Assembly (NCBI RefSeq): GCF_000709345.1
Contig: NZ_KL448325.1
Span: 62,001-126,000 of the forward strand
Source: Polaromonas glacialis
GTDB taxonomy: Bacteria > Pseudomonadota > Gammaproteobacteria > Burkholderiales > Burkholderiaceae_C
Direction of reading: 5' to 3'
DNA: 64,000 bases
The notes under the pieces are model-generated. The model had not been told where the DNA came from. It worked only from the letters and a program-made list of their open reading frames with translations, and searched no databases. Of this stretch, positions 20,553 to 37,853 are shown piece after piece. Positions within the stretch are counted from its first letter, which is position 1; every line of letters starts with the position of its first letter. The translations under genes were made by a program, and so were the position numbers.

Positions 20553-20603
20553 TGCGCTGAATCCTTTGTCTGGGTTTGCCGATTTCATACCTGGGCGATG
20601 GCG

Positions 20604-22173: not shown

Positions 22174-23694
22174 TCAGTCCTTGTGGGCGGGGTCGAGTGC
22201 AGACTCCAGCGTCTTGACCGACTGTTTTTCATACTCGGCGGCCACATCCTTCTTCTGCTTTTCCAGCGCATCCTTCGAAAAATATTTGCCCTTCAGGAAC
22301 ACGCCGGCGATCTTGCCGAGGTTGGCCACATCGACGACCGGGTTGGCATCGAGCAGCACCAGGTCGGCATTTTTTCCCTCGTCAACGGTTCCCATCGTTG
22401 CTTCACGCTTGAGGAACTGCGCGCCGTTCAGCGTGGTCATCTGCAACACCTCGAGCGGCGACAAGCCGGAGGCGGCCAGTTCACGGAACTCCTGGTGAAG
22501 ACCAAAGCCCGGGATTACCCAGATGCCGCCCAGGTCGGAGCCGGCGAGCATTTTCACGCCATTTTGCTTCATCAGCTTCGTGACTTGTTTCTCCAGTCCA
22601 TAAAATTGCTGCAGCGTGGCGACCGCAGCGGGCGGCAGCGTCGTCACAAAATCCTGCCCCAGCTTTTCCCACAGCGCCCGGGTGGTCTTGTCAACATAGA
22701 CAAGGTTCGGATCGGTGCGGTACAGCGGATCGCCGCCGAAGCTCTGCGTGCGCAGGCGAATCAAGGTGGGCACCTGCCAGGTTTCGTTTTTCACGAAGGC
22801 TTGCGACAGGCTCTGACACTTGGCATCGCTGTACGTGTCAAAGATGCGCTGGTATAGCGGGGCGTTCTGCGCGCCGTCATAAATCCGTGGATTGAGTACG
22901 AAGGTGGCCGGAAAGGGCGGCCTGGCGGCTTGGCCGCTCAACACGGCCTGTCGAATGCTTGTCTCGTCATTGGCGCAATCGAGCATCAGCCCCCAGCCGG
23001 AGCCCAGGTGTTCGATGGCGCGCCAGCCTGCGTTGCTTGACTCCAGCGCACTGAGGCTAGGCACCAGGTGGCCCGCGACAGTCAGTCCCTGATTTTTGGC
23101 TTCCCCCAGAATCGCCAGGACGGGGTCGCGTGCGCCGGCGGAAATTTTGATGAAGTCCGCGCCATTGGCCTTTTGCTGCTGGACAAACTGAACCGCAAGG
23201 GGCGCCGTAGGGGCTTGACCGCCGAATATGTCGCCCGGGATCATCAAAATTTCGGGGGCGTCAACGCGGCCTGCCGCCCTGTCGGCATTGAGCTGGCGGG
23301 CGCGCTGGATCAAGGCGGCCGAGCCCGACATCTCGCGGATGCCGGTGATGCCGTTGGCGATGAGCAGCGGCCAATAAGTGGGCTGCTGGTCGGCGGCGCT
23401 CATGGCGTGGGTGTGCATGTCCAGGTAGCCCGGCACCAGGTACTTGCCCGAGGCATCGATGGCCTGCGCGCTCCCGCTGAGGCGAATGGCTGTGCCGGCC
23501 ATGATTTTCTGAATTTTTCCCTCGTCAATGATCACCGACATTCCGGAAGCGAGCGAGCCGTCCCGGGTATTGACCACTGTTGCATTCTGAATGACCGTGC
23601 CTTTCGTGACTTCGAACGCGTCACCACCGCCGCATGCAGAAAGGATCGCGCCGATAGTGACGGTGGCGACGCCTGCGATAAAAAGTTTTTTCAT
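22174..23694 (-). CDS. Amidohydrolase-superfamily lipoprotein (imidazolonepropionase/prolidase-like)
   Basis: The 506-residue protein has a lipoprotein signal (lipobox LSAC at about residue 21), then a metal-dependent hydrolase: LDMHTH, the Lys of DFIKISAG, His of VAGHLVPS, His of AIEHLG and Asp of LAGSDLGG, which together make a binuclear-metal site; NADLVLLDANP is the C-terminal beta-sandwich signature. It is probably anchored in the periplasm, where it could cleave an amide or ester. It is the last of eight same-strand genes running from the FAD monooxygenase at 31795; its location after a Rieske oxygenase and Bug receptor suggests it frees the transported aromatic acid from a conjugate, which is inference. 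Confidence 0.8.
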   Translation of the reverse strand: MKKLFIAGVATVTIGAILSACGGGDAFEVTKGTVIQNATVVNTRDGSLASGMSVIIDEGKIQKIMAGTAIRLSGSAQAIDASGKYLVPGYLDMHTHAMSAADQQPTYWPLLIANGITGIREMSGSAALIQRARQLNADRAAGRVDAPEILMIPGDIFGGQAPTAPLAVQFVQQQKANGADFIKISAGARDPVLAILGEAKNQGLTVAGHLVPSLSALESSNAGWRAIEHLGSGWGLMLDCANDETSIRQAVLSGQAARPPFPATFVLNPRIYDGAQNAPLYQRIFDTYSDAKCQSLSQAFVKNETWQVPTLIRLRTQSFGGDPLYRTDPNLVYVDKTTRALWEKLGQDFVTTLPPAAVATLQQFYGLEKQVTKLMKQNGVKMLAGSDLGGIWVIPGFGLHQEFRELAASGLSPLEVLQMTTLNGAQFLKREATMGTVDEGKNADLVLLDANPVVDVANLGKIAGVFLKGKYFSKDALEKQKKDVAAEYEKQSVKTLESALDPAHKD

Positions 23695-23838
23695 AGTCCC
23701 GGTTTCTTATAAATGTAGGAAAAATTCGGATGCGGATCATTCCGGCGCCGGAACCTGCTGCATCCAAAAGGGCTGCTTCAAATTATCGAGTGAGGCGGAA
23801 AACCGGCAGGCTTTGCTTTGAGATATTTGAGCGACCTG

Positions 23839-24891
23839 TTAGGGGTTGGCGGCAGCTTCTCTAACTTTCATTTCGCTCTCCATCATGCCCGCCACCAGTC
23901 GGCGGGCATGAACCAGTCCGGCGTCCGATGCAATCATGACGAGCGGAGCCCCCTCCAGCCTGTCGATTGATTCTTGCTGCGCCTCGACCACCACCTTGTC
24001 CTCGGCAAACGTGATCGGCAGGCTGGTCAGCAGCTTGGCGCGCATATCGGATTGGCCTTCTTCGTAGTTATGCGCACCCGACCAGAAGTAGTGGGTCGTC
24101 TTTTCGGTTTCTGGGGTCTGCAGGTTCAGGCCCATAAACGCCAGGCCGCCCTCGCGGTGTCCTTCCCGCGCGCCGGTGCCTGCATCTGTGGCGCCGGTGT
24201 GGATACGCACGACGACAGGCGCAAAGAAATCAATCTCCATCCAGCGGTCCACCGTCGGCGTGTTGAACTTGTGCGCGGCAAGGTAGGAAGGCGGCGGCAC
24301 CGAGTTCATCATCCAGCGCGTTACCTTGACGCCGGTTTCAGAGCGCGTGGTCTGGGTGTCGGCATCCGAATGCGCCTGCGGCGTGCCGCCGATGGTGCGC
24401 TGGTGGACATACCCGACATGTGTCAGGTCCATAAGGTTGTCGGTCACCAACTGGTAGTTGGCCTTGATGGAATACCTGTCCTTGATCCACACCCAGGCCG
24501 GGTCGTCATGCCATGGGTGGCGCACGATCAGCGCCGGATTCGCCAGTGCAGGCTCGCCCATCCATATCCAGAGCATCTGGTCCTGCTCCACCACCGGGTA
24601 GCTCCTGACCCGAGCCTGCACAGGAATGCGTTCTTGGCCCGGCACCTTGACGCAAAGGCCGTTGCGGTCATAGACTAGCCCGTGGTAACCGCACTGAAGC
24701 TGATCGCCGACAACACAGCCGTGCGACAGCGGCAACGCACGATGGCAGCACCTGTCTTCCAGCGCGAGCGCCATTCCATTTTCCGTGCGGTAAAAAACCA
24801 CCGGCAGGTTGAGCAGGACACGGCCCAACAAGCCCTTTGGCTTCACTTCATCGGCCCAAGCGGCCATGTACCAGGCGTTGTATACGAACAT
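23839..24891 (-). CDS. Rieske non-heme iron oxygenase, VanA/dicamba-demethylase-like
   Basis: The 350-residue protein opens MFVYNAWYMAAWADEV, has the Rieske cluster motif CCHRALPLSHG and LQCGYHGLVYD (C-x-H, C-x2-H), and the catalytic iron motif DNLMDLTHVGYVH. These features place it with single-subunit O-demethylases such as vanillate demethylase oxygenase and dicamba monooxygenase. Such enzymes need a reductase (VanB or ferredoxin), which is not encoded in this operon. It lies between a Bug gene and a lipoprotein amidohydrolase, so a methoxylated aromatic acid may be the substrate of this module; the product would be a phenol suited to the flavin monooxygenase at 30092. Confidence 0.88.
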   Translation of the reverse strand: MFVYNAWYMAAWADEVKPKGLLGRVLLNLPVVFYRTENGMALALEDRCCHRALPLSHGCVVGDQLQCGYHGLVYDRNGLCVKVPGQERIPVQARVRSYPVVEQDQMLWIWMGEPALANPALIVRHPWHDDPAWVWIKDRYSIKANYQLVTDNLMDLTHVGYVHQRTIGGTPQAHSDADTQTTRSETGVKVTRWMMNSVPPPSYLAAHKFNTPTVDRWMEIDFFAPVVVRIHTGATDAGTGAREGHREGGLAFMGLNLQTPETEKTTHYFWSGAHNYEEGQSDMRAKLLTSLPITFAEDKVVVEAQQESIDRLEGAPLVMIASDAGLVHARRLVAGMMESEMKVREAAANP

Positions 24892-24933
24892 GCTGTGTTT
24901 CCTTCCCGTTCGGGGTTGCGGTTATTGCAGTTA

Positions 24934-25923
24934 TTACGGCTTGGCCCCCACGTCGCGCAGCGCTTTTTCCCAGCGGTTGCGCTCGTTGGCGAGGTAGTCG
25001 GTGAATTCCGGCACGGTCATGTTGCGCGGGAAGATAGCCATGCCAGCCATCTTTTCAACGACGTCCGGCATGGAGGTGACTTTTGCAACATCTGCGTTGA
25101 CCTTTTGCACCACCTTCGGATTGAGGCCTGTCATGGCCAGCACACCGAACCAGCCGTTGACCACCAGGCCCGGAAAAGTCTCCGATACCGCCACCCAGTC
25201 CGGATGCGCGGGCATCCTTTTTGCGGAGAAAGTGGCCAGCGCCTTGAGCCGTCCACCCTGGATCAGCCCGTCGAGTGCAGGCAGCCCATCGATGACCACC
25301 TGTACGTCTTCGCCCACCACGGCCGAGGCGCCCTGGCTGCTGCCGGGATACGGCACGGACCGCAGGGATGCCCCCGCAGCTTTTGACAGCAACTCGTTCG
25401 TCAAATGCGGCAATGAAAATTGCAGCGGTACTGCCGTCACCAGCGTGTCGGGTTGCCTGCGCATGGCCGCCAGCAGCTCTGCAAAGCTTGAAATAGGGGA
25501 ACCTGCCTTGACCGCCAGGATCATCGGGCTCTCGCCAATAAAGGCCACCGGCGTGAGGTCGCGTGCAATATCGACCTGCGTGCTTTTGTACATGTAAGGC
25601 GACAGCGCGACGCTACTGGCGGGCGCGAAGGTAAAGACGTGGTCGTCTTTTTCAGTCATTTTCATGTTGGAAAATGCCACCATGCCACCGGCGCCGGGAC
25701 GGTTATCGACAATCACCGGCTGGCCCCACATGCGCGACAGCTTGTCGCCAATGAGGCGTGCCATGATGTCAGGCGCCGTACCCGCTGGAGACGGCACCAC
25801 CAACCGTACGGGCTTGCTTGGCCAAGCTGGAGACTGAGAATTTGCAGGGCCTGCCGCAGCTGTTGCAAGCAGCACACCTGCCAGCATTAATTGGCGCCGA
25901 AATTTATTCATTGGATGTTTCAT
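24934..25923 (-). CDS. Bug-family periplasmic solute receptor (TctC type)
   Basis: The precursor has about 329 residues with a signal peptide ending near PANSQ-SPA, followed by PVRLVVPSPAGTAPDIMARL and DNRPGAGGMVAFSN, the two conserved Bug loops. It is only distantly related to the receptors at 1515, 20604 and 34206, so it came from a different lineage. The start at 25923 (MKHPMNKF) is chosen; MNKF at 25911 is possible and the longer frame to 26025 has no support. It is followed by the Rieske oxygenase gene and preceded by a porin gene, an arrangement that would provide entry and capture of the same compound. Confidence 0.85.
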   Translation of the reverse strand: MKHPMNKFRRQLMLAGVLLATAAAGPANSQSPAWPSKPVRLVVPSPAGTAPDIMARLIGDKLSRMWGQPVIVDNRPGAGGMVAFSNMKMTEKDDHVFTFAPASSVALSPYMYKSTQVDIARDLTPVAFIGESPMILAVKAGSPISSFAELLAAMRRQPDTLVTAVPLQFSLPHLTNELLSKAAGASLRSVPYPGSSQGASAVVGEDVQVVIDGLPALDGLIQGGRLKALATFSAKRMPAHPDWVAVSETFPGLVVNGWFGVLAMTGLNPKVVQKVNADVAKVTSMPDVVEKMAGMAIFPRNMTVPEFTDYLANERNRWEKALRDVGAKP

Positions 25924-26043
25924 TTTCTTTTGTACTGCGTTTGTCAAAAATAGCGACCAGGCCACGCCAGCGGTTTGCGCTGGACGGTGCCAGAAGTAAT
26001 ACGATTTGTTAATTAGGAAAGACAAATTACAAAAAGACTAAAG

Positions 26044-27090
26044 TTAAAATGCATGACGTATACCTAGCGCCACTCCGGTTTGGCCTTGACCAGGCGATGA
26101 CATCACCGTCGCAAATGCCACCCCAAAGTTGCTGTTCTTGCCATTCAGCACGCGCGCGGCAGAGGTATAAACAAGCGTTCGTTTGGAAAGACTGTAGGTT
26201 CCAAGAACACCGGCGAGTCTTGTTTTATCGCCAAGATCAAAATTATATTGTCCCGCATGCGCTACCACACGCAATGCTGGAGAAAATTTATACCCGATAC
26301 TTCCTATATAAACATCTCCGGCAGGTGAAATGTTCAAGTTGCCACTCACTTTTACATAATCAGCAAACAACTCGAACGGACCTGTGTCATACCGTGCGGC
26401 GACGCTTAAACGTTTATCCGACAAAGAAGACAGATTGGTCGCCGCCACTGTTCCATTAGAAGTTTCATAAGTGACACGCGTGCGGAACTTGTTGTTAACA
26501 TACTCCAGACCGGCACCCTTGTACCGACCGGCGCTGCTATTGCCAGGCAACTCTTGGCCAAACGAATACATGACCGTTCCTGAGATGCCAGCGAAGCTTG
26601 GCGATACATACTTGATTGCGTTATTTAATTTATAAAGCTGGATAGGCACTGCATTTAGGGAACCAATCCCGTATGTCGTTCCATAAGTCGGGTCATATGT
26701 GCCAAGCACCGTATAGTCATACTGCACGCCCCCCAAACGACCAGCCGAAACAGTGCCCCAATTGTTACTCAGGCCAACGTAAGCAAAGCGGTTAAAAAAT
26801 GCTACCGGAGTTGCCTGAGCGCCCGTGTCAACGTTGAAGCTATTTTCAAGTTTAAAAAATGCTTTGGCGCCGTCACTCAAGTCCTCGGCACCTGTAATTC
26901 CCCAGTTTGAAGGTAAAAAACTTCCGGAATTAAGTGCTGTCAAAGAAGTACCAGCAGCATTTTTATTGGTTGTGTAATTCAAGCTGGCATCCACGGATCC
27001 ATAAAGTGTCACAACACTTTGGGCGAACGATGAGGTTTGTGCAAGAAGGCCTGCAAATGCTAGGGCGGTAAAATGAGTTTTATTGTTCAT
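26044..27090 (-). CDS. Burkholderiales-type outer-membrane porin
   Basis: The 348-residue protein has a signal peptide (ALAFAGLLAQTSSFAQ) followed directly by SVVTLYGSVDASLNYT, the standard first strand of Gram-negative porins of this order. NWGITGAEDLSDGAKAFF and WGTVSAGRLGGV correspond to the conserved strands, and it ends GVALGIRHAF with the terminal Phe needed for barrel assembly. It has lower GC than its neighbours in its middle part. It is inside the operon between BKACE and a Bug gene, with its own hairpin-bearing leader, so its expression may be tuned separately. Confidence 0.9.
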   Translation of the reverse strand: MNNKTHFTALAFAGLLAQTSSFAQSVVTLYGSVDASLNYTTNKNAAGTSLTALNSGSFLPSNWGITGAEDLSDGAKAFFKLENSFNVDTGAQATPVAFFNRFAYVGLSNNWGTVSAGRLGGVQYDYTVLGTYDPTYGTTYGIGSLNAVPIQLYKLNNAIKYVSPSFAGISGTVMYSFGQELPGNSSAGRYKGAGLEYVNNKFRTRVTYETSNGTVAATNLSSLSDKRLSVAARYDTGPFELFADYVKVSGNLNISPAGDVYIGSIGYKFSPALRVVAHAGQYNFDLGDKTRLAGVLGTYSLSKRTLVYTSAARVLNGKNSNFGVAFATVMSSPGQGQTGVALGIRHAF

Positions 27091-27121
27091 ACTTTTGTCT
27101 CCAGTTTAATTTTTAAAATTT

Positions 27122-27142
27122 GTACGTCTTCATAAGACGTAC
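27122..27142. promoter_or_regulatory. Nine-bp perfect hairpin in the porin leader
   Basis: GTACGTCTT and AAGACGTAC pair perfectly around CAT, 32 bp before the porin start in the gap after the BKACE gene. In the minus-strand transcript it is followed by an A/U-rich run (AAATTTTAAAAATT), so it could act as a weak terminator or attenuator, a 5' stabilising hairpin, or as DNA an operator. Confidence 0.5.
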
Positions 27143-27245
27143 GGTCACATAGCACAATTATTCCGGCGCAACGATTGCCGGTTTATTAATTGCAAGTTAA
27201 TTCCATTAACCTGACGAAAAATCCACTCCAGAAACTGGACGATAT

Positions 27246-28232
27246 TTATTTGGCGCCAACCAATACCCCGGCCTTAACTTGGTGATCGCTGGTCGTCAAT
27301 GCCGCAGGCATGTTCAACCCCTCCCTTCCCTTCAAGCCCAGCATCGCGCGCGCCTCGGAAGGCGTGGCAATTTCCATCCCCAGGGCTTCGAGCACCCCGC
27401 GAATCAGCTGCACCTGCTGGGCATTGCTGGTCGCCATTTCATTGGGTTTGAGGTAGAGCGAATCCTCCAGCCCGACGCGCACATTGCCGCCCATTAACGC
27501 CGCCTGCGTGACCAGTCCCATCTGCCGGCGGCCAGCGCCCAGCACTGACCAGTCGTAGTCGGCGCCGAACAGTTTGTCGGCGATGTGCTTCATGTGCGTG
27601 AGGTTCTCTGGATCGGCGCCGATACCGCCCAGCACGCCCAGTACGAACTGGATGAATGGCCGCTTGACAAAGCCGCGCTGCACGAAATGGTGCAGCGTGT
27701 ACAGGTGGCCCACGTCGTAGCACTCGAATTCAAACCGGGTGCCGTGCGGCTTGGCCAGACGCTCGAACAACTGCTCGATGTCGCCGAAGGTGTTGCGGAA
27801 AATCCCGTTGCGCGAACCCTCCAGGAACTCCGGCTCCCACGCATGCTGCCACGTCTTGATTTTTTCCAGTATCGGGAAAAAGCCAAAATTCATTGAGCCC
27901 ATATTGCAAGAAGCCATCTCCGGCAAGACGTCGAGCGCGCCGGCCAAACGCTGGTCCAAGGTCATGGTATGGGAGCCGCCCGTGGTGATGTTGAGCACCG
28001 CGTCGGTCTGCGCATGGATAGGTTCGAGGAACTGGCGGTAGATGGCCGGGTCGAAGGCGGGCCGGCCGTCGAGCGGGTTGCGCGCATGCAGATGCAGCAC
28101 CGCCGCGCCGGCCTGGGCGGCGGCAATGGCCTGCTCGGCAATTTGCGCCGGCGTGATGGGCAGGTGCGGCGACATGCTCGGCGTGTGGATGGAGCCGGTG
28201 ATGGCGCAGGTAATGATGACTTTGCGTGCCAT
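27246..28232 (-). CDS. BKACE-family beta-keto acid cleavage enzyme (DUF849)
   Basis: The 328-residue protein has the family marks: KVIITCAITGSIHTPSMSP at the start, VLHLHARNP with the two zinc-binding histidines, the TTGGSHTMT substrate loop, and VRVGLEDSLYL with the zinc-binding Glu. Known members condense a beta-keto acid with acetyl-CoA to give acetoacetate and a new acyl-CoA, as Kce does in lysine fermentation. It lies 14 bp behind a FAH gene and in an operon with a monooxygenase and extradiol dioxygenase, so a ring-fission product carrying a beta-keto acid group is the likely substrate. I know of no standard meta pathway that uses this step. Confidence 0.88.
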   Translation of the reverse strand: MARKVIITCAITGSIHTPSMSPHLPITPAQIAEQAIAAAQAGAAVLHLHARNPLDGRPAFDPAIYRQFLEPIHAQTDAVLNITTGGSHTMTLDQRLAGALDVLPEMASCNMGSMNFGFFPILEKIKTWQHAWEPEFLEGSRNGIFRNTFGDIEQLFERLAKPHGTRFEFECYDVGHLYTLHHFVQRGFVKRPFIQFVLGVLGGIGADPENLTHMKHIADKLFGADYDWSVLGAGRRQMGLVTQAALMGGNVRVGLEDSLYLKPNEMATSNAQQVQLIRGVLEALGMEIATPSEARAMLGLKGREGLNMPAALTTSDHQVKAGVLVGAK

Positions 28233-28246
28233 GGTGTAGTTTCCTT

Positions 28247-29122
28247 TCAGATGTTTTCGGGCTCAGCCACGACACGGTTCTCGATCTGGCCGATACCGTC
28301 AATTTCCGCACGCATCACGTCACCCACTTTCAGAAAACGCGCAGGCTGCATGGCAATGCCGACGCCTGACGGCGTTCCTGTGGCAATCAGGTCGCCAGGC
28401 TCCAGCGTGAAGGCAGCCGACAGGTGCTCGATCTGCTGATAGATGTTGTAGACCATGCCTGCCGTGCTTTCCTGCTGACGCAACTCGTCGTTGATATACA
28501 TGCGCATGTTCAGCGCGTGCGGATCAAGCACCTCGTCATCGGTCACGATCCACGGTCCGGTTGGCCCTGAGGTGTCGAACGATTTGCCTATCGTCATGGT
28601 GGGCGAGCGCAATTGCCAGTCGCGCACCGTGACGTCGTTGCAGACCATGTAGCCGGCGATGACCTGGCGCGCGTTGGCTGCGCTCACATGGCGGCAGCGC
28701 TGGCCAATCACCACGCACAGCTCCACCTCATAGTCGAGCTGGTCCGACACGCGCGGCATGTGCACGTCGCCTGTCGGGCCGTTGACGCAGGTGACTTGTT
28801 TGTTGAACCAGATCTGTACCTCAGGCACTTTCATGCCAGCGCGAAGGGCTTCTTCAACATGCTTGCGGTAGTTCATGCCAATGGCCAAAAACTTGCGCGG
28901 GTTGGGCACCGGTGCCAAAAGCCGCACCTCAGCGAGCGGGTAAGCAATGCCCTGCCCGGGGGAAATGGCCTGAGCGCGTTTCAATGCTTCGCTGCCTGCG
29001 GCGAGCAGCTCCATCATGGTGGACGGCAAACCAGCGTCGGATGCGGGCAGGTCCAGGACCTGGTCGCCCACTACTTTTCCAATAGAGGTGCGCTCGCCAC
29101 GGCGGTAGGTTACAAGTTTCAT
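28247..29122 (-). CDS. FAH-family hydrolase
   Basis: The 291-residue enzyme has LDYEVELCVVIGQRCRHV (metal glutamates), VCNDVTVRDWQLR (aspartate), GKSFDTSGPTGPWIV and GDLIATGTPSGVGIA. It is most like the enzyme at 16899. The start ATG at 29122 is followed by MKLVTYRRGERTSIG, the standard N-terminal domain strand, and a GGAGAC lies just upstream. It is third in the eight-gene operon, 21 bp after the extradiol dioxygenase gene and 14 bp before BKACE, so it probably prepares the ring-fission product that BKACE then consumes. Confidence 0.9.
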   Translation of the reverse strand: MKLVTYRRGERTSIGKVVGDQVLDLPASDAGLPSTMMELLAAGSEALKRAQAISPGQGIAYPLAEVRLLAPVPNPRKFLAIGMNYRKHVEEALRAGMKVPEVQIWFNKQVTCVNGPTGDVHMPRVSDQLDYEVELCVVIGQRCRHVSAANARQVIAGYMVCNDVTVRDWQLRSPTMTIGKSFDTSGPTGPWIVTDDEVLDPHALNMRMYINDELRQQESTAGMVYNIYQQIEHLSAAFTLEPGDLIATGTPSGVGIAMQPARFLKVGDVMRAEIDGIGQIENRVVAEPENI

Positions 29123-29143
29123 GGTGTCTCCAAAAAGGTATCG

Positions 29144-30088
29144 TTATTCGAAAAATTCAGGGGTCAGCGGCGGTGCCCATTGCGACAGGCCTTCGAGTTG
29201 GAGAGGGCCGTGGCTGGGCTGGTGCTGGTCGTTCACCAAATCGCCATCGGTCCAGTGCTCCACCTTGTGGCCAAACGGGTCGCGCCAGTAGTCAAACAGC
29301 TGGCTGCCCAGCACATGACGCCCGACACCCCAGCTGTGGCGCCAGCCACCCGCCTTGAGGTGGGCATGGCCCGCCTGCAGGTCTTCCAGGTCCAGCACCT
29401 CGTAAGCCACGTGATCGAAGCGGGCGCTTTCAATCCCGCCCGGCGGCGTGCCCAGGGCAAGCGTGTGGTGGTCGGTGTAGCGCGCGCCCAGACCGCAGTG
29501 CAAAAACGCGAAGGTGGTCTTTTCCGGATCCTGCATATGCAATGAGTCGGAAATCCTAAGGCCCAGCACCTGGTGATAGAAGTCGAACACCGGCTCGAAA
29601 TCCGGGACAAATAAAACCGCATGGCCCAGACGCATCACCTGCGAAGGCCCGCCGGCCGTGCGAACTGCCCCTTGGGGGCGCCGGCGGACATCGGCCGCAT
29701 TGAGTTGATGCGACGGCCGCACCGCCAGCGGCTCGGCAAGGGTTTGTCCGCACAGCACCTCGACGCGAAAACCGGCCGGATCGGTGCAGCGCACCACCTG
29801 TCCGCCTGCCGGCTCAGGGCTGTCTTCGACCCCGGTGCCCAGGTGGTCTGCCAGGCGCTGCAGGTCCGCGCTGCTTTGCGCGCGCAACCCCAAGCCGATT
29901 CCCCTGGCCGTTGGCCCCTGGTGGGTGATATGCACATAGGGAGCGGAGCCCTTGCCACGCATGTACAGCGTGTCGGCAGTGCGGGCCGCCCGCACCAGAC
30001 CGAAGTCGATGAGAAAACGCTCCATCAGCTCAAGATCAGGCGCTTCAAAGCGCACATAGGCAATGTCTTCAACGGCAATAACAGGCAT
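29144..30088 (-). CDS. Two-domain extradiol dioxygenase (VOC family)
   Basis: The 314-residue protein holds two VOC domains, at about 5-110 and 150-290. The second has the iron ligands: LGHAVLFVPDFEPVFDFY (first His), FDHVAYEVLDLEDLQ (second His) and YWRDPFGHKVEHWTDGD (Glu). Type I extradiol dioxygenases of this shape open catechols next to the two hydroxyls. It is separated by only 3 bp from the monooxygenase upstream, so the two are tightly coupled in expression. Sequence is clearly different from the dioxygenases at 39548, 42426 and 60682, pointing to a different substrate. Confidence 0.88.
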   Translation of the reverse strand: MPVIAVEDIAYVRFEAPDLELMERFLIDFGLVRAARTADTLYMRGKGSAPYVHITHQGPTARGIGLGLRAQSSADLQRLADHLGTGVEDSPEPAGGQVVRCTDPAGFRVEVLCGQTLAEPLAVRPSHQLNAADVRRRPQGAVRTAGGPSQVMRLGHAVLFVPDFEPVFDFYHQVLGLRISDSLHMQDPEKTTFAFLHCGLGARYTDHHTLALGTPPGGIESARFDHVAYEVLDLEDLQAGHAHLKAGGWRHSWGVGRHVLGSQLFDYWRDPFGHKVEHWTDGDLVNDQHQPSHGPLQLEGLSQWAPPLTPEFFE

Positions 30089-30091
30089 GGC

Positions 30092-31795
30092 TTAACTCCT
30101 AGGAAAAAGACCGGTGACAAGGCGCAGCACAGGCAAGGGGCCCGAGCTGGCCGGGCCGCGCCACGCGATGTGGTGGTCAGGACGGATCAGCACCAGTTCG
30201 GCGCCATACAAATCACGCACAGCCGCATCGGTGCGTATCACCTTCTCAAGCGGAACGCCCAATGCGGCCGCAGCACTCGACCAATCAGTCTGTGCTGCAG
30301 GTGCCAGCTCCACCGTGCTCAACAGGGTAAAGCCAGTGCCGAACAGGTCCAGCAACGAGCTGCCTTGCGGCATATCCGCTTGTTGATCAGGCAAGTGGGG
30401 AGCGCGCGCGCCGGGGTAGCCACTGGCTACGTAGGTATTCGGGCTGTCAAGGGGCGGTTCGCCAGCTTCATGGGCGACGATGGCACTTGCATACCGCACA
30501 CCCAGCTGAAGGCCCGGAATGTTGAATTCATCTGCCACATGCTTAAGCAGTGTTTGCCCCAGCGTCTTGCGCGCCTGCTCGCCTTCGGGCGTGCCGGCTT
30601 CGAGCTCGGGCGGCATGACCAGCTGGCCGATGCTGTCAGCCATGCGGTGCGCAAACCGGGTATTGCGCTCGGCCATCGGGTGGCGTTCGGCGTGGTAGCT
30701 GTCGAGCAATGCGTCCGGCGCCCAGCCCTGGGTGACGGCGGCCAGTTTCCAGCCCAGGTTCACCGCGTCATCGACACTGGTGTTGTAGCCCATGCCGCCG
30801 GTGGGGGTGAACAAGTGGGCCGCATCCCCCGCAATGAAGAGGCGGCCACGCCGAAAGGCCTCGGCCACCAGCATGTAGCCGGCGGTCCAGGTTCCGCTGT
30901 GAAGCATCTCGTATTGAAAAACCGGCCCCCCGGACAGCGTGCGAAACACCTCGTCCGGATTGATGCTGTCGGCCGACTGGCCTGGCTTGAGTTGAATGCC
31001 AATGGCGAACTCGTCCACGCCATTGATGGTCACCAAAATGCCGCGCATCTCGCAGTTGACGATCCAGGACTGCCAGGCCGGGCGCTGCAAAGGTCCCTGT
31101 GCCAGGCGTTGGTACAGGTCTGCCGACCGGAAGTGAAACGTCATCATCTGGCCGCCGAAGAATTCGCGCTGCGCCTGGCTGGCGCCTTGGTAGCCGACCT
31201 GCATGGCCTCGCGCACCAGACTGCGGGGCCCGTCGCATCCCACAGCATAGTCAGCATTTATTGTTAATGTGCTTTTGCCCGCCACTTCACAAGCGGTGAC
31301 AACCGTACCCTCTGCCGTATCAGCCACTGACATGACCTGCCAGCCATAGCGCGTTACCACGCTGGGGTAGCGAGACACCTCTTCGCGCAGGATGCGCTCG
31401 ATGTACATCTGCTGGGCGCGGTGCGGCAACTCTGGCGTAGGCCAGGCGGCTTCTCCGTAATCGCCAAAGTCGCTGCGCTCGGTAGCCTGCGCACGCGAAG
31501 GAATCCGGAAACGCGCGATTTCATGACCCGTCAGCCGGGTGCAGTACAGCACGTCCTGAGGATGGTCTTTCGTCATACCCACCTGACGCACACGGCCTGC
31601 AAAACCCCTGCGGCGGTAATGCTCCATGGTGCGCGAGGAAGTTGCGTTGGCTTTCGGTACTGAAGGCGCTTCGCTCTGTGCCTCAATCAGCACGCAGGGC
31701 ACGCCCCGGCAACCCAGTTCGATGGCGAGCATCAGCCCGCTAGGGCCGCCCCCCACGATGGCAACAGCTTGTCTCAATAAGGTTTGATTTGTCAC
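30092..31795 (-). CDS. FAD-dependent aromatic monooxygenase (PF01494 type)
   Basis: The 567-residue flavoprotein has VAIVGGGPSGLMLAIELGCRG, KANATSSRTMEHYRRRGFA, the GCDGPRSLVREAM motif and GDAAHLFTPTGGMGYN followed by VNLGWKLAAVTQGW. It is a strong paralogue of the enzyme at 35197: the two share KANATSSRTMEHYRRRGF and NTSVDDAVNLGWKLAAV exactly. It starts with GTG at 31795, with GGAG about 10 bases upstream. It heads the eight-gene operon and is divergent from the LysR gene at 31928 across 132 bp. It would hydroxylate a phenolic acid before ring cleavage by the next gene product. Confidence 0.9.
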   Translation of the reverse strand: MTNQTLLRQAVAIVGGGPSGLMLAIELGCRGVPCVLIEAQSEAPSVPKANATSSRTMEHYRRRGFAGRVRQVGMTKDHPQDVLYCTRLTGHEIARFRIPSRAQATERSDFGDYGEAAWPTPELPHRAQQMYIERILREEVSRYPSVVTRYGWQVMSVADTAEGTVVTACEVAGKSTLTINADYAVGCDGPRSLVREAMQVGYQGASQAQREFFGGQMMTFHFRSADLYQRLAQGPLQRPAWQSWIVNCEMRGILVTINGVDEFAIGIQLKPGQSADSINPDEVFRTLSGGPVFQYEMLHSGTWTAGYMLVAEAFRRGRLFIAGDAAHLFTPTGGMGYNTSVDDAVNLGWKLAAVTQGWAPDALLDSYHAERHPMAERNTRFAHRMADSIGQLVMPPELEAGTPEGEQARKTLGQTLLKHVADEFNIPGLQLGVRYASAIVAHEAGEPPLDSPNTYVASGYPGARAPHLPDQQADMPQGSSLLDLFGTGFTLLSTVELAPAAQTDWSSAAAALGVPLEKVIRTDAAVRDLYGAELVLIRPDHHIAWRGPASSGPLPVLRLVTGLFPRS

Positions 31796-31927
31796 GATGC
31801 GCCTATCTCCTGCGTTTTATAGAACCAGCGATGCCGCATCTTAAAAATCATTCAATGAAAACAAAAGATAGCAAAAAAATTCCAGAGCTATATTTTTGTT
31901 ATCACCTTATCATTGAGAAATTACCGT

Positions 31928-32836
31928 ATGACAGCTAACCTTAAACTTCATCACCTGCGTCATTTCGTTGCCATTGCCCAGCATCAAAGCGTGCGGTCTG
32001 CCGCGCGCGCACTAGGGCTCGCCCAGCCGGCTGTGACGCGCAGCCTGCGCGAGCTGGAGAAGGAGCTCAACGCCTCTTTGGTTGAAAGGCACGCGCGCGG
32101 CGTGGTGCTGACCGAAGTCGGCAAACGCTTTCTGGTGCGTGCGCAAAGCGCCGTGTCCGAGGTGCAGCGCGCCTCTGAGGAAGTGGGGCAACTCGGTGGA
32201 TCCGGCGAGGGCACGGTCGTGGCGGCACTCTCAGCTGCAGCCATGCTGGCCCTTGCGGCACCGGCAATCAGTGCGTTTCGCCTTGGTTATCCCAGGGTGC
32301 ATTTGCGGCTGATTGAAGCGGTATTTCCCACCGTGGAATCACGACTGCTCGACGGCCAGTTGGACTTTTATGTTGGCGCCAAGCCGGTGCACATGCCGCG
32401 TGAACTGCGCTCGGAGTTTTTCTTTCACAACGAACGTGTGGTGGTCGCGCGCCAGGGCCACCCGCTGAGCAGTGCGCGCAGCCTGAAGCAACTCATCCAG
32501 GCCGATTGGATCATGACCGGTTTGCGCGAAAAAGAAGAGGCGGAGTTCGAAGAGCTTTTCTCGGCGTTTGACCTGGCTGCCCCGCACTCGCGCACCCGGA
32601 TCGAATCCATGGTCGGTCTTTTGATGGTGATGAGCAGTACCGATGCGCTGGTACTGCTGCCGAGGCAGTGGACAAATCTACCCCTGTTCAAGGGGGTGCT
32701 GGCGCCAATACTTATTGAAGAAAAATTGCGTGCGCCTGACATTGTCTTGATTGCCAGAAGCTCTGTGCCGCTGACGCCCGTTGCAGAGCGCTTTGCGGTG
32801 CTGTTGCAACGCGCAGCGGGAAAGCCTTTTGTGTAA
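31928..32836 (+). CDS. LysR-family transcriptional regulator
   Basis: The 302-residue protein has the winged helix LKLHHLRHFVAIAQHQSVRS, LAQPAVTRSLRELEKELNA and ERHARGVVLTEVG, then a LysR effector domain (DFYVGAKPVHMPRELRSEF). The ATG at 31928 is preferred to a TTG at 31913. It is transcribed away from the monooxygenase operon 22174-31795 and is its likely activator. The intergenic region is AT-rich and includes the small palindrome GATGCCGCATC at 31830-31840, a possible contact point. Confidence 0.9.
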   Translation: MTANLKLHHLRHFVAIAQHQSVRSAARALGLAQPAVTRSLRELEKELNASLVERHARGVVLTEVGKRFLVRAQSAVSEVQRASEEVGQLGGSGEGTVVAALSAAAMLALAAPAISAFRLGYPRVHLRLIEAVFPTVESRLLDGQLDFYVGAKPVHMPRELRSEFFFHNERVVVARQGHPLSSARSLKQLIQADWIMTGLREKEEAEFEELFSAFDLAAPHSRTRIESMVGLLMVMSSTDALVLLPRQWTNLPLFKGVLAPILIEEKLRAPDIVLIARSSVPLTPVAERFAVLLQRAAGKPFV

Positions 32837-33160
32837 AACTACCAATTGGTCCACCGCCGATCAAGTCACCGAGGCAAACCGTTCGAACCCAAGGTAACGG
32901 TTGCTGCGCGAAGTTTCCAACTTCTGAGGATTGCAAGCTGTTATTGCTGACACGATGCCAGCGCATTGCTTACCAAAGCTTAGACGATAAAGTGATGCAT
33001 CCATAAATTCATGTCCTCTTTTGGGACATGAAGAAAGATAAAGCATGGAGCCAGATCTCGCTGGCTTTTTCTCGCCTCTTCAACTAACGATAAAAACCGT
33101 TTTTGGCGCAAGAAGTGATGCTGGTCGCTTGGCACCAATGCCTAGCCAGCAGCTCAACTC
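32837..33160. other. Non-coding gap between two convergent LysR genes
   Basis: The region holds no supported gene. Two hairpins are visible: CATGTCC/GGACATG at 33010-33030 with a 7-base loop, and the terminator-like structure at 33049-33070. Confidence 0.6.
33049..33070 (+). terminator. Candidate intrinsic terminator for the LysR gene at 31928
   Basis: AGCCAG and CTGGCT form a 6-bp stem around six bases and are followed by TTTTTC on the plus strand. The structure is about 210 bp past the LysR stop and lies between convergent genes. Confidence 0.5.
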
Positions 33161-34096
33161 TCACAAGTTCTGAGCCATAGCACTGACCAATTGATGACCT
33201 TCATACGGCTTCCCGGAGGCCCGTTCAAACAAGGTCGCCAGCTTTTCGGCCAGTGGTGTCAAGGGCAGGGCGTTGCGCCGGATCAGCACAATGTCGGGAC
33301 CGGCCAGCGCTTCGGCCACCGGGATTTCCTGCAGGGAGGTTTTGAAGATGGCGCTGCTCACCCACTGCTGCGGCAAGAATGCCAGTGCGTCGGTCGATGT
33401 CAGCAAGGCCACTACCGGCAGCGTGGTCAGTGTTTGCGTGACCGACCGGGGCGCTGGCAGACCATGCAACGCGAACTGCTCTTCGAATTCGATCTCCACC
33501 GGCTGGCGCAGGCCCGTCATGATCCACTCGGCATCGATCAGCCCGCGCAAGCTGCGCACACCGGCCAGCGGATGGCCACGGCGGCCCACCACCACCCGCT
33601 TGTTGCGAAACAGCAGCTGCACGGCATAGGAATGGTCCAGCTCGCCCAGGGGCTGCGGCCCAATGTAAAAGTCGAGGCTGCCATTTCTGAGCTGGGGCTC
33701 CAGCGCCGGGAAAAGCCCTTCCGTCAGGCTCACCTGCGCATCCGGAAAATTCTTGCGAAAAGCCGGATACACCTGCGGCACCAGCGACAAAAACACTGCG
33801 CTCGACAGCCCGGCGCTGACCTTGCCGGCGACACCGCCCTTGAGCTGCTCGATTTCCTGCCGCCCGCGCTCGACATCGTTCAGGATGGAGCGGGCGCGCA
33901 TGACGAAGGCCTGGCCATAGACGCTGAGCGACACGCCCTTGCCGTGCCGCTCCAGCAGGGGAACGCCGAGTTCTTTTTCCAGATCGCGCAGGCCCCGCGT
34001 GATGGCCGGCTGCGCCAAGCCTTGCGCGCGCGCCGCAGCCCGGATGCTGCTGGCGTCGGCCACGGCGACCAGATTGCGCAGTTGGTGTAATTTCAT
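33161..34096 (-). CDS. LysR-family transcriptional regulator
   Basis: The 311-residue protein starts MKLHQLRNLVAVADASSIRA, continues LAQPAITRGLRDLEKELGV and ERHGKGVSLSVYG, and has the LysR effector domain (DFYIGPQPLGELDHSY). It is divergent from the Bug-monooxygenase-FAH-esterase-dioxygenase set that begins at 34206, with a T-N11-A site close to its own start codon, so it is the likely regulator of that module. It is a paralogue of the regulators at 15949 and 31928, consistent with whole modules having been duplicated with their regulators. Confidence 0.9.
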   Translation of the reverse strand: MKLHQLRNLVAVADASSIRAAARAQGLAQPAITRGLRDLEKELGVPLLERHGKGVSLSVYGQAFVMRARSILNDVERGRQEIEQLKGGVAGKVSAGLSSAVFLSLVPQVYPAFRKNFPDAQVSLTEGLFPALEPQLRNGSLDFYIGPQPLGELDHSYAVQLLFRNKRVVVGRRGHPLAGVRSLRGLIDAEWIMTGLRQPVEIEFEEQFALHGLPAPRSVTQTLTTLPVVALLTSTDALAFLPQQWVSSAIFKTSLQEIPVAEALAGPDIVLIRRNALPLTPLAEKLATLFERASGKPYEGHQLVSAMAQNL

Positions 34097-34205: not shown

Positions 34206-35180
34206 ATGAAACGTCGATCATTCACTTTTCTGGCCGCCGGCATGGGCCTGAGCCTGCTGGCCAACCCGGGCTGGGCGCAGTCCTTTCCCGCCCAGCCGGT
34301 GCGCATCATTTCCCCGTTTCCGGCGGGCAGCGGCCCCGATGTGGTGGCTCGCATCGTCGGGGAAAAGCTGACCGCCGGCTGGAAGCAGGGCGTCGTGGTC
34401 GATGCCCGGCCGGGCGCCAACGGTTTTCTGGCCATCGGCGCGGTCAAACAGGCGGCGCCCACCGGCCACGACCTGCTGATCGCCGACGTGGGCCATCTGT
34501 CCATCAGCCCCTCGCTGTTCAAGAAACTCCCCTATGACCCGAAGGCCGATTTCGTTCCGGTGGGTGGGGTGTACCGCACCTCGTTCTTCGTCGTGGTGGC
34601 AGCCAACAGTCCGATCCGCACGGTCAAGGACCTGATTGCTGCCGCCGCCACCCCGGGCAAGGTCACCTACGGTTCGAACTCGATCGGCGGTCCGCTGCAC
34701 CTGGGCGCCGCGCAGTTAGAGGCTGCCAGCGGCACCAAGATGACGCATGTGCCCTACAAGGAAATCTCGCAGCTCTACATTGCCGTGTCCACCGGCGAGA
34801 TCGACTGGGCCATGGGCAGCATGGCCAGCGCCGGCCCGCTGCTCAAGGCGGGCAAGGTGCGCTTCATCGCCGTGGCCGACGACGCCCGTTCCCCCAGCCT
34901 GCCCAACGTGCCGACGCTGGAAGAGTCGGGCGGCCCGAAGGGTGTCAAGGCGCGCACCTGGGTGGCCTTGATGGCACCCAAGGGAACGCCTGCAGCCGTT
35001 ATCACCACACTGAACCAGAGCCTAAACGATGCGCTCAGGCAGCCTGACGTGGCTGAAAAATTCGCGAACTTCGGCTTCGTGCCGGACCCGACCACGCCCG
35101 CAGCGCTCGCCAGCCTGATCGACAGCGATGCCATGGTCTATGCGGCCATGGTCAAGCGCACCGCCGCCAGCGTTGACTGA
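34206..35180 (+). CDS. Bug-family periplasmic solute receptor (TctC type)
   Basis: The 324-residue precursor has a signal peptide ending GWAQ-SFP, then PVRIISPFPAGSGPDVVARI and DARPGANGFLAIGAVKQA. It is a close paralogue of the receptors at 1515 and 20604, and all three start modules that continue, or once continued, with a FAD monooxygenase. ACTGGAGACAAA stands directly before the ATG. The stop codon lies 16 bp before the monooxygenase gene. The ligand is probably an aromatic carboxylate. Confidence 0.9.
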   Translation: MKRRSFTFLAAGMGLSLLANPGWAQSFPAQPVRIISPFPAGSGPDVVARIVGEKLTAGWKQGVVVDARPGANGFLAIGAVKQAAPTGHDLLIADVGHLSISPSLFKKLPYDPKADFVPVGGVYRTSFFVVVAANSPIRTVKDLIAAAATPGKVTYGSNSIGGPLHLGAAQLEAASGTKMTHVPYKEISQLYIAVSTGEIDWAMGSMASAGPLLKAGKVRFIAVADDARSPSLPNVPTLEESGGPKGVKARTWVALMAPKGTPAAVITTLNQSLNDALRQPDVAEKFANFGFVPDPTTPAALASLIDSDAMVYAAMVKRTAASVD

Positions 35181-35196
35181 CAACAGGAGCCAGGCC

Positions 35197-36891
35197 ATGA
35201 AACAAACAACTGATGTCGCCATCATCGGCGGCGGGCCAGCCGGCCTGATGCTGGCCATTGAACTGGGTTGCCGGGGCGTGGACTGCGTGCTGCTCGAGGA
35301 AGACATTGCCGCGCCGGATTTCCCCAAGGCCAATGCCACCTCGTCACGCACCATGGAGCATTACCGCCGCCGCGGCTTTGCCCAGCAGATTCGCTCGCTG
35401 GGCCTGGCCGCTGACCACCCCCAGGACGTGGTGTACTGCACCACACTGGCGGGCAGGGAACTGACGCGATTTTCAATTCCTTCGCGCACTGAGGCCCTGA
35501 ACCGGACATCCTTTGGCGACTACGGCGAGGAATCCTGGCCCACGCCTGAGCTGCCGCACCGGGGCCAGCAGATGTTCATCGAGCCCGTGCTGCGCGCGCA
35601 GGCTGGGCAATATGACAGCGTCAAGCTGATGCTCGGCTGGCAGGCCGAGTCGATGGCAATGGATGACCAACAGGTCAGCATTGTGTCCCGGCATGCCGAA
35701 AGCGGCGAAGCGCTGACCTTGAGCGCGCGCTACGTCGTGGGCTGCGACGGCCCGCGCAGCTTGGTGCGCAAGACCTGCGGCATTCGCTACAGCGGCCAGA
35801 GCGACGAAGCGCGCGAGTTTTTCGGCGGGCAGATGCTGTCGGTGTATTTCACCTCCAGCACGCTCTACCAGGTGCTGGGCAAGGAGAAAGCCTGGCAATA
35901 CTGGGCCGTCAACGCGGTGCAGCGCGGCCTGCTGATCGCCATTGACGGCGTGGACCAGTTTTTGTTCTGCCTGCAGCTCAGCGCCGGGCAAACGCCCGAA
36001 TCGGTGGACTTCCGGGCCGCGATGTTCGCGGCCATCGGCCGTGAATTCGCGTTCGAGCTGATCGCCGTCGGCCCCTGGCATGCCGGGTTCACGCTGGTGG
36101 CGGACCAGTTCTCCAAAGGCCGCGCCTTCATCGCCGGTGATGCCGCGCACCTGTTCACGCCCACCGGCGGCATGGGTTACAACACCAGCGTGGACGATGC
36201 GGTCAACCTGGGCTGGAAGCTGGCGGCCGTGGTCAAGGGCTGGGCCGGCGAGGAACTGCTCGACTCGTACGAGGCCGAGCGCAAGCCCATCGCGCAGCGC
36301 AACACCACGTTCGCCCGCGCCATGGCCGACAGCATCGGCGGCATCAAGGTGCCGCCCAATGTCGATGCCGAGGGCCTTGATGCCGAACGCGTGCGCCAGC
36401 AGCTCGGTGATGCCCTGCACCGGCATGTGCGCAACGAATTCAACATTCCTGGCCTGCAGCTGGGCCTGCGCTACGAGGGCAGCCCCATTGTGGCGAGCGA
36501 AGCGGGCGCGCCAACGCTTGATGAGCCCAATCACTACCTTCCTTCGGCGCGCCCTGGCGCGCGCGCACCGCATATCTGGCTGGACGGCGCCTCCATCTTC
36601 GACCTGTTTGGGCGCGATTACACCCTGCTGTGTTTTACCGCCAGTGACCACAATGCCCCGCCCGCCGATGCCCTTGCCTGGCAGGCTGCTGCCGCCGCCA
36701 TGAATGTGCCGCTGGCACTGGTGTACTGCGCCAGCCTGGACGCTAGAGACCTGTACGGCGCCGACCGGGTGCTGGTCCGGCCCGACCACCATGTGGCGTG
36801 GCGCGGAGATGCCAGCGCCGATGCCCATGCCTTGCTGGCGATGGCCTGCGCCCGGGAAAGCCTTCCGGCCCTGCAGCCCATCGCCGCGTAA
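35197..36891 (+). CDS. FAD-dependent aromatic monooxygenase (PF01494 type)
   Basis: The 564-residue flavoprotein has VAIIGGGPAGLMLAIELGCRG, GCDGPRSLVRKTCG and GDAAHLFTPTGGMGYN, then NLGWKLAAVVKGWAGEELLD and a thioredoxin-like C-terminus. The ATG at 35197 follows CAGGAG by 9 bases; the longer frame from 35128 overlaps the Bug gene and is rejected. It is a paralogue of the enzyme at 30092. The first bases of this gene match the short scar at 2499, where the same neighbour (a Bug gene) stands upstream. It would hydroxylate the ring of the compound taken up by this module. Confidence 0.9.
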   Translation: MKQTTDVAIIGGGPAGLMLAIELGCRGVDCVLLEEDIAAPDFPKANATSSRTMEHYRRRGFAQQIRSLGLAADHPQDVVYCTTLAGRELTRFSIPSRTEALNRTSFGDYGEESWPTPELPHRGQQMFIEPVLRAQAGQYDSVKLMLGWQAESMAMDDQQVSIVSRHAESGEALTLSARYVVGCDGPRSLVRKTCGIRYSGQSDEAREFFGGQMLSVYFTSSTLYQVLGKEKAWQYWAVNAVQRGLLIAIDGVDQFLFCLQLSAGQTPESVDFRAAMFAAIGREFAFELIAVGPWHAGFTLVADQFSKGRAFIAGDAAHLFTPTGGMGYNTSVDDAVNLGWKLAAVVKGWAGEELLDSYEAERKPIAQRNTTFARAMADSIGGIKVPPNVDAEGLDAERVRQQLGDALHRHVRNEFNIPGLQLGLRYEGSPIVASEAGAPTLDEPNHYLPSARPGARAPHIWLDGASIFDLFGRDYTLLCFTASDHNAPPADALAWQAAAAAMNVPLALVYCASLDARDLYGADRVLVRPDHHVAWRGDASADAHALLAMACARESLPALQPIAA

Positions 36892-36925
36892 ATCTTTTTA
36901 ACGACCCAACACTGAAAGCATCGAC

Positions 36926-37783
36926 ATGCGTTTTTTAAATTTCAAACAGGGTAGCCAGCCAGGCATGGCCGTGGCCGACGGCGCGCAATTCAGGGGCCTT
37001 TTCAGCTCCGACGCGGGCTTTCCGGGCGACCTGCAGTCCTTGCTGGCCCAGGGGCCGCAAGCGCTTCAAGAGGCCGCCGAGGCGCTGCGCCAGGGGCCGG
37101 TGATTGACCTGGACACAATCACCTACTTGCCGCCACTGGAAAACCCGGGCCGCATTTTCTGCATCGGCCTGAACTATGTGGACCATTCGGTCGAAAGCGG
37201 GTTTGCCGTGCCGACCTACCCGGCGATTTTTTCGCGCTTTGCCGCCAGCATGACCGGCCACGGCGAGCCTATCGTGCGCCCCAAAGTCTCGACGCAGCTG
37301 GACTACGAAGGTGAACTCGTCGCCGTCATCGGCAAGGCCGGGCGCTACATCACCAAGGAGCAGGCGCTCGACCACGTGGCGGGTTATTCGATCTGCAATG
37401 ACGCATCGATCCGCGACTACCAGTTCAAGTCCGCGCAGTGGACGATCGGCAAGAACTTTGACGACACTGGCCCGTTTGGCCCGCACTTTGTCACCAGCGA
37501 CGAGCTGCCGCCCGGCGCGGCGGGTCTGAAGATCCAGACCCGGCTCAACGGCGTCGTCGTGCAGGACGCCTCGACGTCGTCATTGATCTTTGACGTGGCC
37601 ACGCTGGTCAGCCTGCTCAGCGAAGCGGTCTGCCTGCAGCCTGGCGACGTGATCGTCACCGGCACCCCGTCGGGCGTCGGCCTGGCGCGCAAGCCGCCGC
37701 TGTTCATGAAGCACGGCGATGTCTGTGAAGTCGAAATCGAAGGCCTCGGCATCCTGCGCAACCCGGTGGTGGACGAGCAATAA
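36926..37783 (+). CDS. FAH-family hydrolase
   Basis: The 285-residue enzyme has FCIGLNYVDHSVESG, LDYEGELVAVIGKAGRYI with the first metal-binding positions, ICNDASIRDYQFKSAQW with the Asp, GKNFDDTGPFGPHFV and GDVIVTGTPSGVGLA. The usual second Glu of the E-x-E pair is kept (YEGEL). It is 34 bp behind the monooxygenase and 70 bp before a lipoprotein esterase. It belongs to a different branch from the near-identical pair at 41498/58762, so its substrate probably differs. Confidence 0.9.
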   Translation: MRFLNFKQGSQPGMAVADGAQFRGLFSSDAGFPGDLQSLLAQGPQALQEAAEALRQGPVIDLDTITYLPPLENPGRIFCIGLNYVDHSVESGFAVPTYPAIFSRFAASMTGHGEPIVRPKVSTQLDYEGELVAVIGKAGRYITKEQALDHVAGYSICNDASIRDYQFKSAQWTIGKNFDDTGPFGPHFVTSDELPPGAAGLKIQTRLNGVVVQDASTSSLIFDVATLVSLLSEAVCLQPGDVIVTGTPSGVGLARKPPLFMKHGDVCEVEIEGLGILRNPVVDEQ

Positions 37784-37853
37784 ATCAGGCGCGTTGCCGC
37801 CATCCGGCCACCGTTCGCTGATTCCCCGATAGAAAAATAACGAGAGACAAACA

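Follow-up and report, generated by a model that had tools for sequence, protein, structure and literature searches.

Several described pathways share parts of the chemistry that can be proposed for a four-gene operon of Polaromonas glacialis, which lies in a stretch of 64,000 nucleotides (contig NZ_KL448325.1, positions 62,001 to 126,000; hereafter the window) and encodes an FAD-dependent aromatic-ring monooxygenase (FMO), an extradiol dioxygenase (EDO), a FAH-family hydrolase (FAH) and a beta-keto acid cleavage enzyme (BKACE). The orcinol and resorcinol meta pathways of pseudomonads, associated with Chapman and Ribbons, reportedly have a hydroxylase, an extradiol dioxygenase, a 2,4,6-trioxo acid and a pyruvate-releasing hydrolase in common with this scheme; they are said to end in pyruvate and acetate and are not known to include a BKACE step. 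In the fde (naringenin) and ifc (isoflavone) meta pathways, an FAD monooxygenase is likewise followed by a glyoxalase-type ring-cleaving dioxygenase, but the available text of these reports mentions no BKACE, and the downstream ifc genes encode cupins and an alpha/beta hydrolase (PMC11069340, PMC11303751, PMC8552027). In variants of the beta-ketoadipate pathway, a DUF849 protein has been proposed to stand in for pcaIJ/pcaF, which would make BKACE a substitute for CoA activation in the final part of an aerobic aromatic pathway (Methylobacterium, PMC8963497; Betaproteobacteria, PMC6449761); however, ring cleavage is of the ortho (intradiol) type there and the BKACE belongs to another subfamily than that of the window. 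In the anaerobic phloroglucinol pathway of Clostridium scatologenes (PGR-DPGC-TfD-TAL), a BKACE-family enzyme converts a polyphenol-derived beta-keto acid, triacetate, and acetyl-CoA to acetoacetate and a CoA ester, whereas the ring is attacked reductively and opened by a cyclase-type reaction, and the accessible text names no monooxygenase, EDO or FAH (PMC10470551). No phloroglucinol-type reductase or cyclase gene was found among the ten open reading frames (ORFs) scanned with Pfam around the operon (22174 to 34096). Finally, BKACE15 of Paracoccus denitrificans (8RIO/8RIP/9HNF) is 55% identical to the window BKACE and has the same catalytic residues; one sentence of its description says that its genetic context suggests aromatic degradation, and its physiological role is stated there to be unknown (PMC11961710).

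Our searches of the open-access literature, including that on alkylresorcinols, olivetol and orcinol, gave no description of a meta-cleavage route ending in EDO, FAH and BKACE. The statement of the initial annotation that no described meta-cleavage pathway ends in this way was thus borne out to that extent, but aromatic pathways of other kinds that end in BKACE have been published (PMC10470551) or proposed (PMC8963497, PMC6449761). The annotation had also placed a DUF849 BKACE behind the other three genes at short gaps. This was correct, Pfam families included: the four ORFs share a strand and are 3, 21 and 14 bp apart.

30092..31795, minus strand: FMO, FAD-dependent aromatic-ring monooxygenase, 567 aa (PF01494 and PF21274, Rng_hyd_C; NF004780 subfamily)
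29144..30088, minus strand: EDO, two-domain VOC-type extradiol dioxygenase, 314 aa (PF00903)
28247..29122, minus strand: FAH, FAH-family C-C hydrolase, proposed acylpyruvase, 291 aa (PF01557)
27246..28232, minus strand: BKACE, beta-keto acid cleavage enzyme, 328 aa (PF05853, DUF849)

We give a probability of about one half to the reading that this operon encodes the lower pathway for a (substituted) resorcinol-type phenol and ends in BKACE, as suggested by gene content and known chemistry. For orcinol, hydroxylation and extradiol cleavage by the substituent yield a 2,4,6-trioxo acid. In the operon, FMO would put a hydroxyl group beside an existing one on the resorcinol-type ring, giving a triol, and EDO, whose Fe-ligand residues are intact, would open the ring by the substituted carbon to yield HOOC-CO-CH2-CO-CH2-CO-R. 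FAH, with its catalytic residues intact, would then hydrolyse this acylpyruvate to pyruvate and the beta-keto acid R-CO-CH2-COOH, and BKACE, by a reaction type known for its family, would pass the CH2COOH unit on to acetyl-CoA. The products would be acetoacetate and R-CO-CoA, and the side chain would thus exit already activated. The acetoacetate could be activated by an acetoacetyl-CoA synthetase or CoA transferases of the genome, and it is probably usable because the genome has a match to the former (647.9 bits, cut-off 520.9) and eight CoA-transferase matches. The initial annotation had the ring-fission product itself ending in a beta-keto acid; such an intermediate is backed by the recurrence of EDO-FAH-BKACE and by the exclusion pattern described below, but the acid most likely arises after the FAH step, through acylpyruvate hydrolysis, and not at ring fission.

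The same scheme limits the side chain. R = methyl is unlikely because acetoacetate plus acetyl-CoA would be a null reaction, and longer alkyl- or aryl-substituted resorcinols are therefore the leading candidates; orcinol, whose beta-keto acid is acetoacetate, was set aside as a substrate. Unsubstituted resorcinol would give an aldehyde as its fission product, from which oxidation and decarboxylation would lead to acetylpyruvate, and this would fit the loci with genes for an aldehyde dehydrogenase and an acetoacetate-decarboxylase (ADC) family protein considered below. If the scheme is true, it describes a meta-cleavage route whose side chain leaves as a CoA ester with no need for a ligase, and it would provide a physiological role for BKACE15-type enzymes, for which none is known according to the available text (PMC11961710).

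Judged from its residues, the BKACE looks catalytically active. It matches PF05853 with 354.8 bits (cut-off 24.8), and its best solved relatives are 3e49 (59% identical in the alignment), 3e02 and BKACE15 (8rio/8rip). Its His47, His49, Glu170, Tyr172, Arg252, Glu256 and Asp257 align with residues of Kce and BKACE15; apart from the three treated in the next sentence, we take the conserved residues to have the roles familiar from this family, Kce-type metal ligands included. Roles for Glu171, Tyr173 and Arg254 of BKACE15 are given in the accessible parts of two papers (PMC11961710, PMC12871164). In addition, the protein exceeds the cut-off of NF053538 (3,5-dioxohexanoate:acetyl-CoA acetone transferase; 497.7 bits, cut-off 430). 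This name says little on its role, since matches above the cut-off occur in 55 of 349 genomes of the order Burkholderiales. Two other roles were rejected. For lysine fermentation, NF052387 scored 229.7 against a cut-off of 382, and the column of Kce Glu14, which contacts the 5-amino group of the substrate according to the available text (PMC10470551), holds Ile15 in the window BKACE, as in BKACE15; the initial annotation had named action on 3-keto-5-aminohexanoate alone as a finding that would refute its proposal, and this case seems unlikely. For an ortho role on 3-oxoadipate, the score was 160.9 against a cut-off of 350, and no intradiol gene was present among the ten ORFs scanned. The genome has one other BKACE-family gene, whose product is 28% identical to that of the operon.

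The upstream enzymes were characterised in the same manner. FMO scored 578.2 bits with NF004780 of NCBIfam (cut-off 445). With two VOC domains and a predicted 2-His-1-Glu site, EDO is of type I (VOC); its proposed ligands His156, His226 and Glu277, which we take from the family to be those of the iron, lie in columns kept in 96/96, 96/96 and 95/96 (one gap) aligned EDOs. His88xxGlu91, Glu132, Glu134 and Asp163 of FAH are kept in 28/28 aligned FAHs, all from the EDO clade of the window, and presumably represent the HxxE motif and acidic metal ligands. This motif is common to hydrolases and decarboxylases and does not discriminate between them. The best NCBIfam model for FAH, NF053535 (2,4-didehydro-3-deoxy-L-rhamnonate hydrolase), gave 207.8, below its cut-off of 500; the resemblance would be to a C-C hydrolase of a 2,4-diketo acid, and we count it in favour of the resorcinol pathway even though it is below the cut-off.

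To place the operon among its relatives, we used three aligned EDOs to search a collection of species genomes and analysed the best 80 loci of 375 relatives; 45 of these loci reach 8 kb on both sides, and 35 are shorter than 8 kb on a side. FAH was found within 8 kb of EDO in 70/80 loci, and in 64 of the 80 it lies immediately downstream in the same orientation. Within the same distance, 51/80 loci have a monooxygenase of the PF01494 or the two-component type, 14/80 an ADC-family gene and 5/80 a gene of a second DUF849 subfamily, here termed BKACE2. In addition, nine of 46 plasmid records with an EDO match were examined, and they revealed a canonical BKACE in two cases (L013, adjacent; L017, 5.7 kb off; L-numbers are labels of loci compared with the window) and a BKACE2 in one (L012). 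Four loci besides the window have the order EDO-FAH-BKACE in a single orientation, with the genes -4 to 67 bp apart; this recurrence and the frequent EDO-FAH contact (64/80) make the gene arrangement more than chance:

Window, Polaromonas glacialis: gaps 21 and 14 bp
L013, Paraburkholderia largidicola: gaps 31 and 54 bp
L039, bog gammaproteobacterium: gaps -4 and 1 bp
L041, Pseudomonas alkylphenolica: gaps 37 and 56 bp
L047, Pseudomonas sp. GM21: gaps 27 and 67 bp

A two-component monooxygenase replaces FMO in L013, L041 and L047, and that of L041 is HsaA-like by its best model, under the cut-off of that model. Two further features count in favour of the proposed pathway: a TodX/FadL-type channel gene comes after BKACE in L041 and L047, and beta-oxidation-type genes lie upstream of BKACE in L039, a locus whose additional genes are of FadB-like, thiolase-family, acyl-CoA synthetase-type, zinc reductase and tannase-family types. 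The initial annotation had concluded that the route does without a separate CoA ligase, but this is not general, as the synthetase-type gene of L039 illustrates; FMO-EDO loci of B. multivorans and Microvirga also have a synthetase, with no BKACE in the stretches examined.

A further pattern emerged from the EDO tree (96 rows; L011, with a broken EDO frame, was left out). The window EDO falls within a starred clade of 31 rows (99/85) that takes in all of the ADC-linked EDOs and all of those linked to molybdenum hydroxylases in the set, as well as 5/7 of the canonical BKACE-linked ones. Of the 31 clade loci, a BKACE-family gene is present in 11 (canonical in 5, BKACE2 in 6) and an ADC-family gene in 14; no locus contains both, and six contain neither (L021, L024, L033, L035, L040 and L042, of which L021, L035, L040 and L042 are short stretches). 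The hypergeometric probability of zero overlap is 1.5e-4, with kinship ignored and the clade picked post hoc. A BKACE- or ADC-family gene is present in 25/31 clade rows vs 2/65 outside rows, a post hoc Fisher contrast in which the clade was chosen after the tree had been seen, the rows share ancestry, the EDOs include two identical pairs, and absences are weakened by stretches under 16.8 kb (8/30 fetched clade loci, 30/65 outside loci). Neither a BKACE nor an ADC match was found in L004-L010, examined in wider versions as L161-L167. An HpaE-like aldehyde dehydrogenase gene is found in 11/14 ADC loci and 0/11 BKACE loci of the clade. Not all ADC-family proteins are decarboxylases; the one compared aligns with 3cmb through the common Pro-Lys. 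We regard the exclusion of BKACE and ADC as two ways of consuming a beta-keto acid and count it for the resorcinol pathway, and its presence in one EDO clade makes the key intermediate predictable and directly testable.

The class of substrate is indicated by a second association of this clade. In 13/80 loci (L023, L024, L025, L026, L032, L033, L034, L037, L038, L043, L045, L046 and L091), all belonging to the EDO clade of the window, genes for a large molybdenum protein and a 4Fe-4S protein are found close to EDO, and in 10 of the 13 they lie directly behind EDO-FAH. No FAD monooxygenase match was found in these 13 loci, and L023 alone has a weak two-component match. The large protein of L034 bears PF21423 and matches pyrogallol hydroxytransferase at 8.6e-257, and the others are 71-87% identical to it in the matched parts. 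Resorcinol hydroxylase belongs to the same group as pyrogallol hydroxytransferase, according to the accessible text (PMC10100899). This link to the pyrogallol-transhydroxylase/resorcinol-hydroxylase group points to resorcinol-like substrates for the EDO clade. We also observed that these loci pair an oxygen-independent type of hydroxylase with an oxygen-dependent ring cleaver.

Several results weigh against this reading. Its chemistry and substrate are deduced from sequence, and EDO and FAH are below every NCBIfam equivalog cut-off listed. The molybdenum-hydroxylase argument comes from relatives and not from the P. glacialis genome, in which PF21423 was not found by a search that also gave no match in any control genome; a FAH match is absent at three molybdenum-enzyme loci (L033, L045 and L046), so FAH is not always close by. 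The porin and the TctC-type protein encoded beside the operon suggest a polar rather than a long-chain substrate. A canonical BKACE lies within 8 kb in only 4/80 EDO loci, and in one of these, the short stretch L099, it is on the opposite strand with no FAH match; L035 (Pseudomonas jinjuensis) has a two-component monooxygenase, EDO and FAH, yet no BKACE or ADC match. NF053538 matches at E 1e-80 or better occur in 57/349 genomes of the order, at 61 places including that of the operon, and we took the 60 others with up to 8 kb per side (50/60 span at least 12 kb): EDO, FAH and FMO matches (1e-10, about 8 kb) are absent from all 60. Therefore, the subfamily mostly serves something else in the sampled genomes, and the operon represents a rare use. 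Co-occurrence of BKACE with ring-cleavage genes, which the initial annotation had suggested as a check, was seen as EDO-FAH-BKACE in the four other loci, but canonical BKACEs accompany few EDOs (4/80) and the BKACE loci elsewhere in the order showed no such neighbours (0/60).

The standing of BKACE2 is a further weakness. This second subfamily occurs near EDO in L012 (11070-11951), L025, L034 (13930-14805), L036, L043 and L091, and the catalytic Tyr is replaced by Phe in the three aligned proteins (L012, L034 and L036). BsfD, a phosphonate enzyme with the same Phe, does different chemistry as far as its available description goes (PMC12871164), and BKACE2 proteins may therefore not be beta-keto acid cleavers. 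We kept them apart, and the tree argument rests on canonical genes. In a tree of 70 BKACEs (partial or split genes of L091, L157, L158 and L160, and L168, a copy of L002, were left out), the 12 ring-cleavage-linked members, 5 of them BKACE2, required 6 label changes, at least 4 of which are forced by starred branches. The window BKACE, L039, L017 and L099 are in one starred set of 20 rows, while those of L013, L041 and L047 are outside it, so the EDO-FAH-BKACE pairing may have arisen more than once.

More tentatively, and at clearly less than even odds, the operon may be one member of a modular and largely undescribed family for aerobic resorcinol meta-cleavage, in which a single EDO-FAH core is combined with swappable top hydroxylases and beta-keto acid sinks. 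The tops would be an FAD monooxygenase, an HsaA-like two-component enzyme or a transhydroxylase-like molybdenum enzyme, and BKACE would be the sink for substituted rings, its place being taken by an aldehyde dehydrogenase with an ADC-family enzyme where the ring is unsubstituted. The operon considered here would be the FMO/BKACE combination.

Among the competing explanations, an attack of FMO and EDO on the A ring of a flavonoid or chromone, as in fde/ifc, survives best, and we consider it unlikely. FAH would remove pyruvate, and the leftover pyrone or lactone would open to a 3,5-dioxo acid serving as the BKACE substrate. It agrees with the window BKACE score, which exceeds the threshold for the 3,5-dioxohexanoate model, and with the use of 3,5-dioxohexanoate by BKACE15, as stated in the available text (PMC11961710). 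Naringenin and daidzein are moreover degraded by an FAD monooxygenase and a glyoxalase-type dioxygenase, and one intermediate of daidzein breakdown has been identified as a pyranone (PMC11069340, accessible text). However, the ifc text names cupins and an alpha/beta hydrolase and has no wording on fumarylacetoacetate or beta-keto acid cleavage, and the transhydroxylase link favours simple resorcinols.

It is less likely still that FAH yields no beta-keto acid and that BKACE acts on the product of a neighbouring pathway, such as side-chain beta-oxidation. A FadB-like match occurs in the stretch of 25/60 unlinked BKACE loci and L039 has FadB-like and thiolase genes, in line with a BKACE subfamily that may often feed or drain beta-oxidation, but the immediate adjacency of FAH and BKACE in five loci, the window among them, and the exclusion of ADC suit the FAH product better, and none of the ten ORFs scanned there is a beta-oxidation gene. 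That BKACE is a passenger inserted by chance behind a three-gene ring-cleavage operon, as might be supposed from its absence in canonical form from 76/80 EDO stretches (35/80 being shorter than 8 kb on a side) and from the lack of ring-cleavage genes by its relatives (0/60), is improbable in view of the 14 bp gap, the intact catalytic residues and the same order in four other loci of different genera.

The surroundings of the operon contain the following features:

31913..32836, plus strand: LysR-type regulator, divergent from the operon (ORF and Pfam)
27227..27239, minus strand: terminator-like stem followed by a T-rich tract, just past the BKACE stop (stem scan)
26044..27090, minus strand: porin, 155 bp after BKACE (ORF and Pfam)
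24934..26025, minus strand: TctC-type solute-binding protein (Pfam)
23839..24891, minus strand: Rieske oxygenase with VanA-type C-terminal domain (Pfam)

An amidohydrolase gene comes after the Rieske oxygenase gene, downstream of BKACE. The LysR-type protein probably regulates the operon, and the Rieske oxygenase is a possible O-demethylase. The four genes are likely co-transcribed, with the porin gene possibly forming a separate unit; we keep co-transcription at likely because terminator-like stems are as common in shuffled sequence, the region holding 11 against a mean of 10.4 in shuffles.

Two more records were noted. In L170 (Rhizorhabdus wittichii pSWIT02; 4945-8927), genes for a DUF849 protein, a cyclase, a cupin, an SDR and a 3-hydroxyacyl-CoA dehydrogenase form a row; this row lies near a hydroxyquinol 1,2-dioxygenase gene and resembles a phloroglucinol-type route. 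In L011, a Burkholderia cenocepacia plasmid, EDO is divided between two reading frames (10001-10931) beside an intact FAH ORF, and an aldehyde dehydrogenase ORF spans the record start and is followed by an ADC-family gene.

The window itself contains three further FMO/EDO/FAH modules, none with a BKACE, at 15949-21581, 34206-40549 and 41498-46081 (EDO at 18275, 39548 and 42387; FMO at 18861, 35128 and 43403; FAH at 16899, 36926 and 41498). The operon FMO and the one at 35128 share 56% identity. TctC-type solute-binding proteins are abundant (eight PF03401 ORFs among those scanned between 1515 and 62749), and several adjoin FMO or FAH genes. In addition, 58762-61656 is a near-copy of part of the module at 41498-43406, with 98% identity for FAH and 82% for EDO in the best protein-level matches, which suggests a recent duplication.

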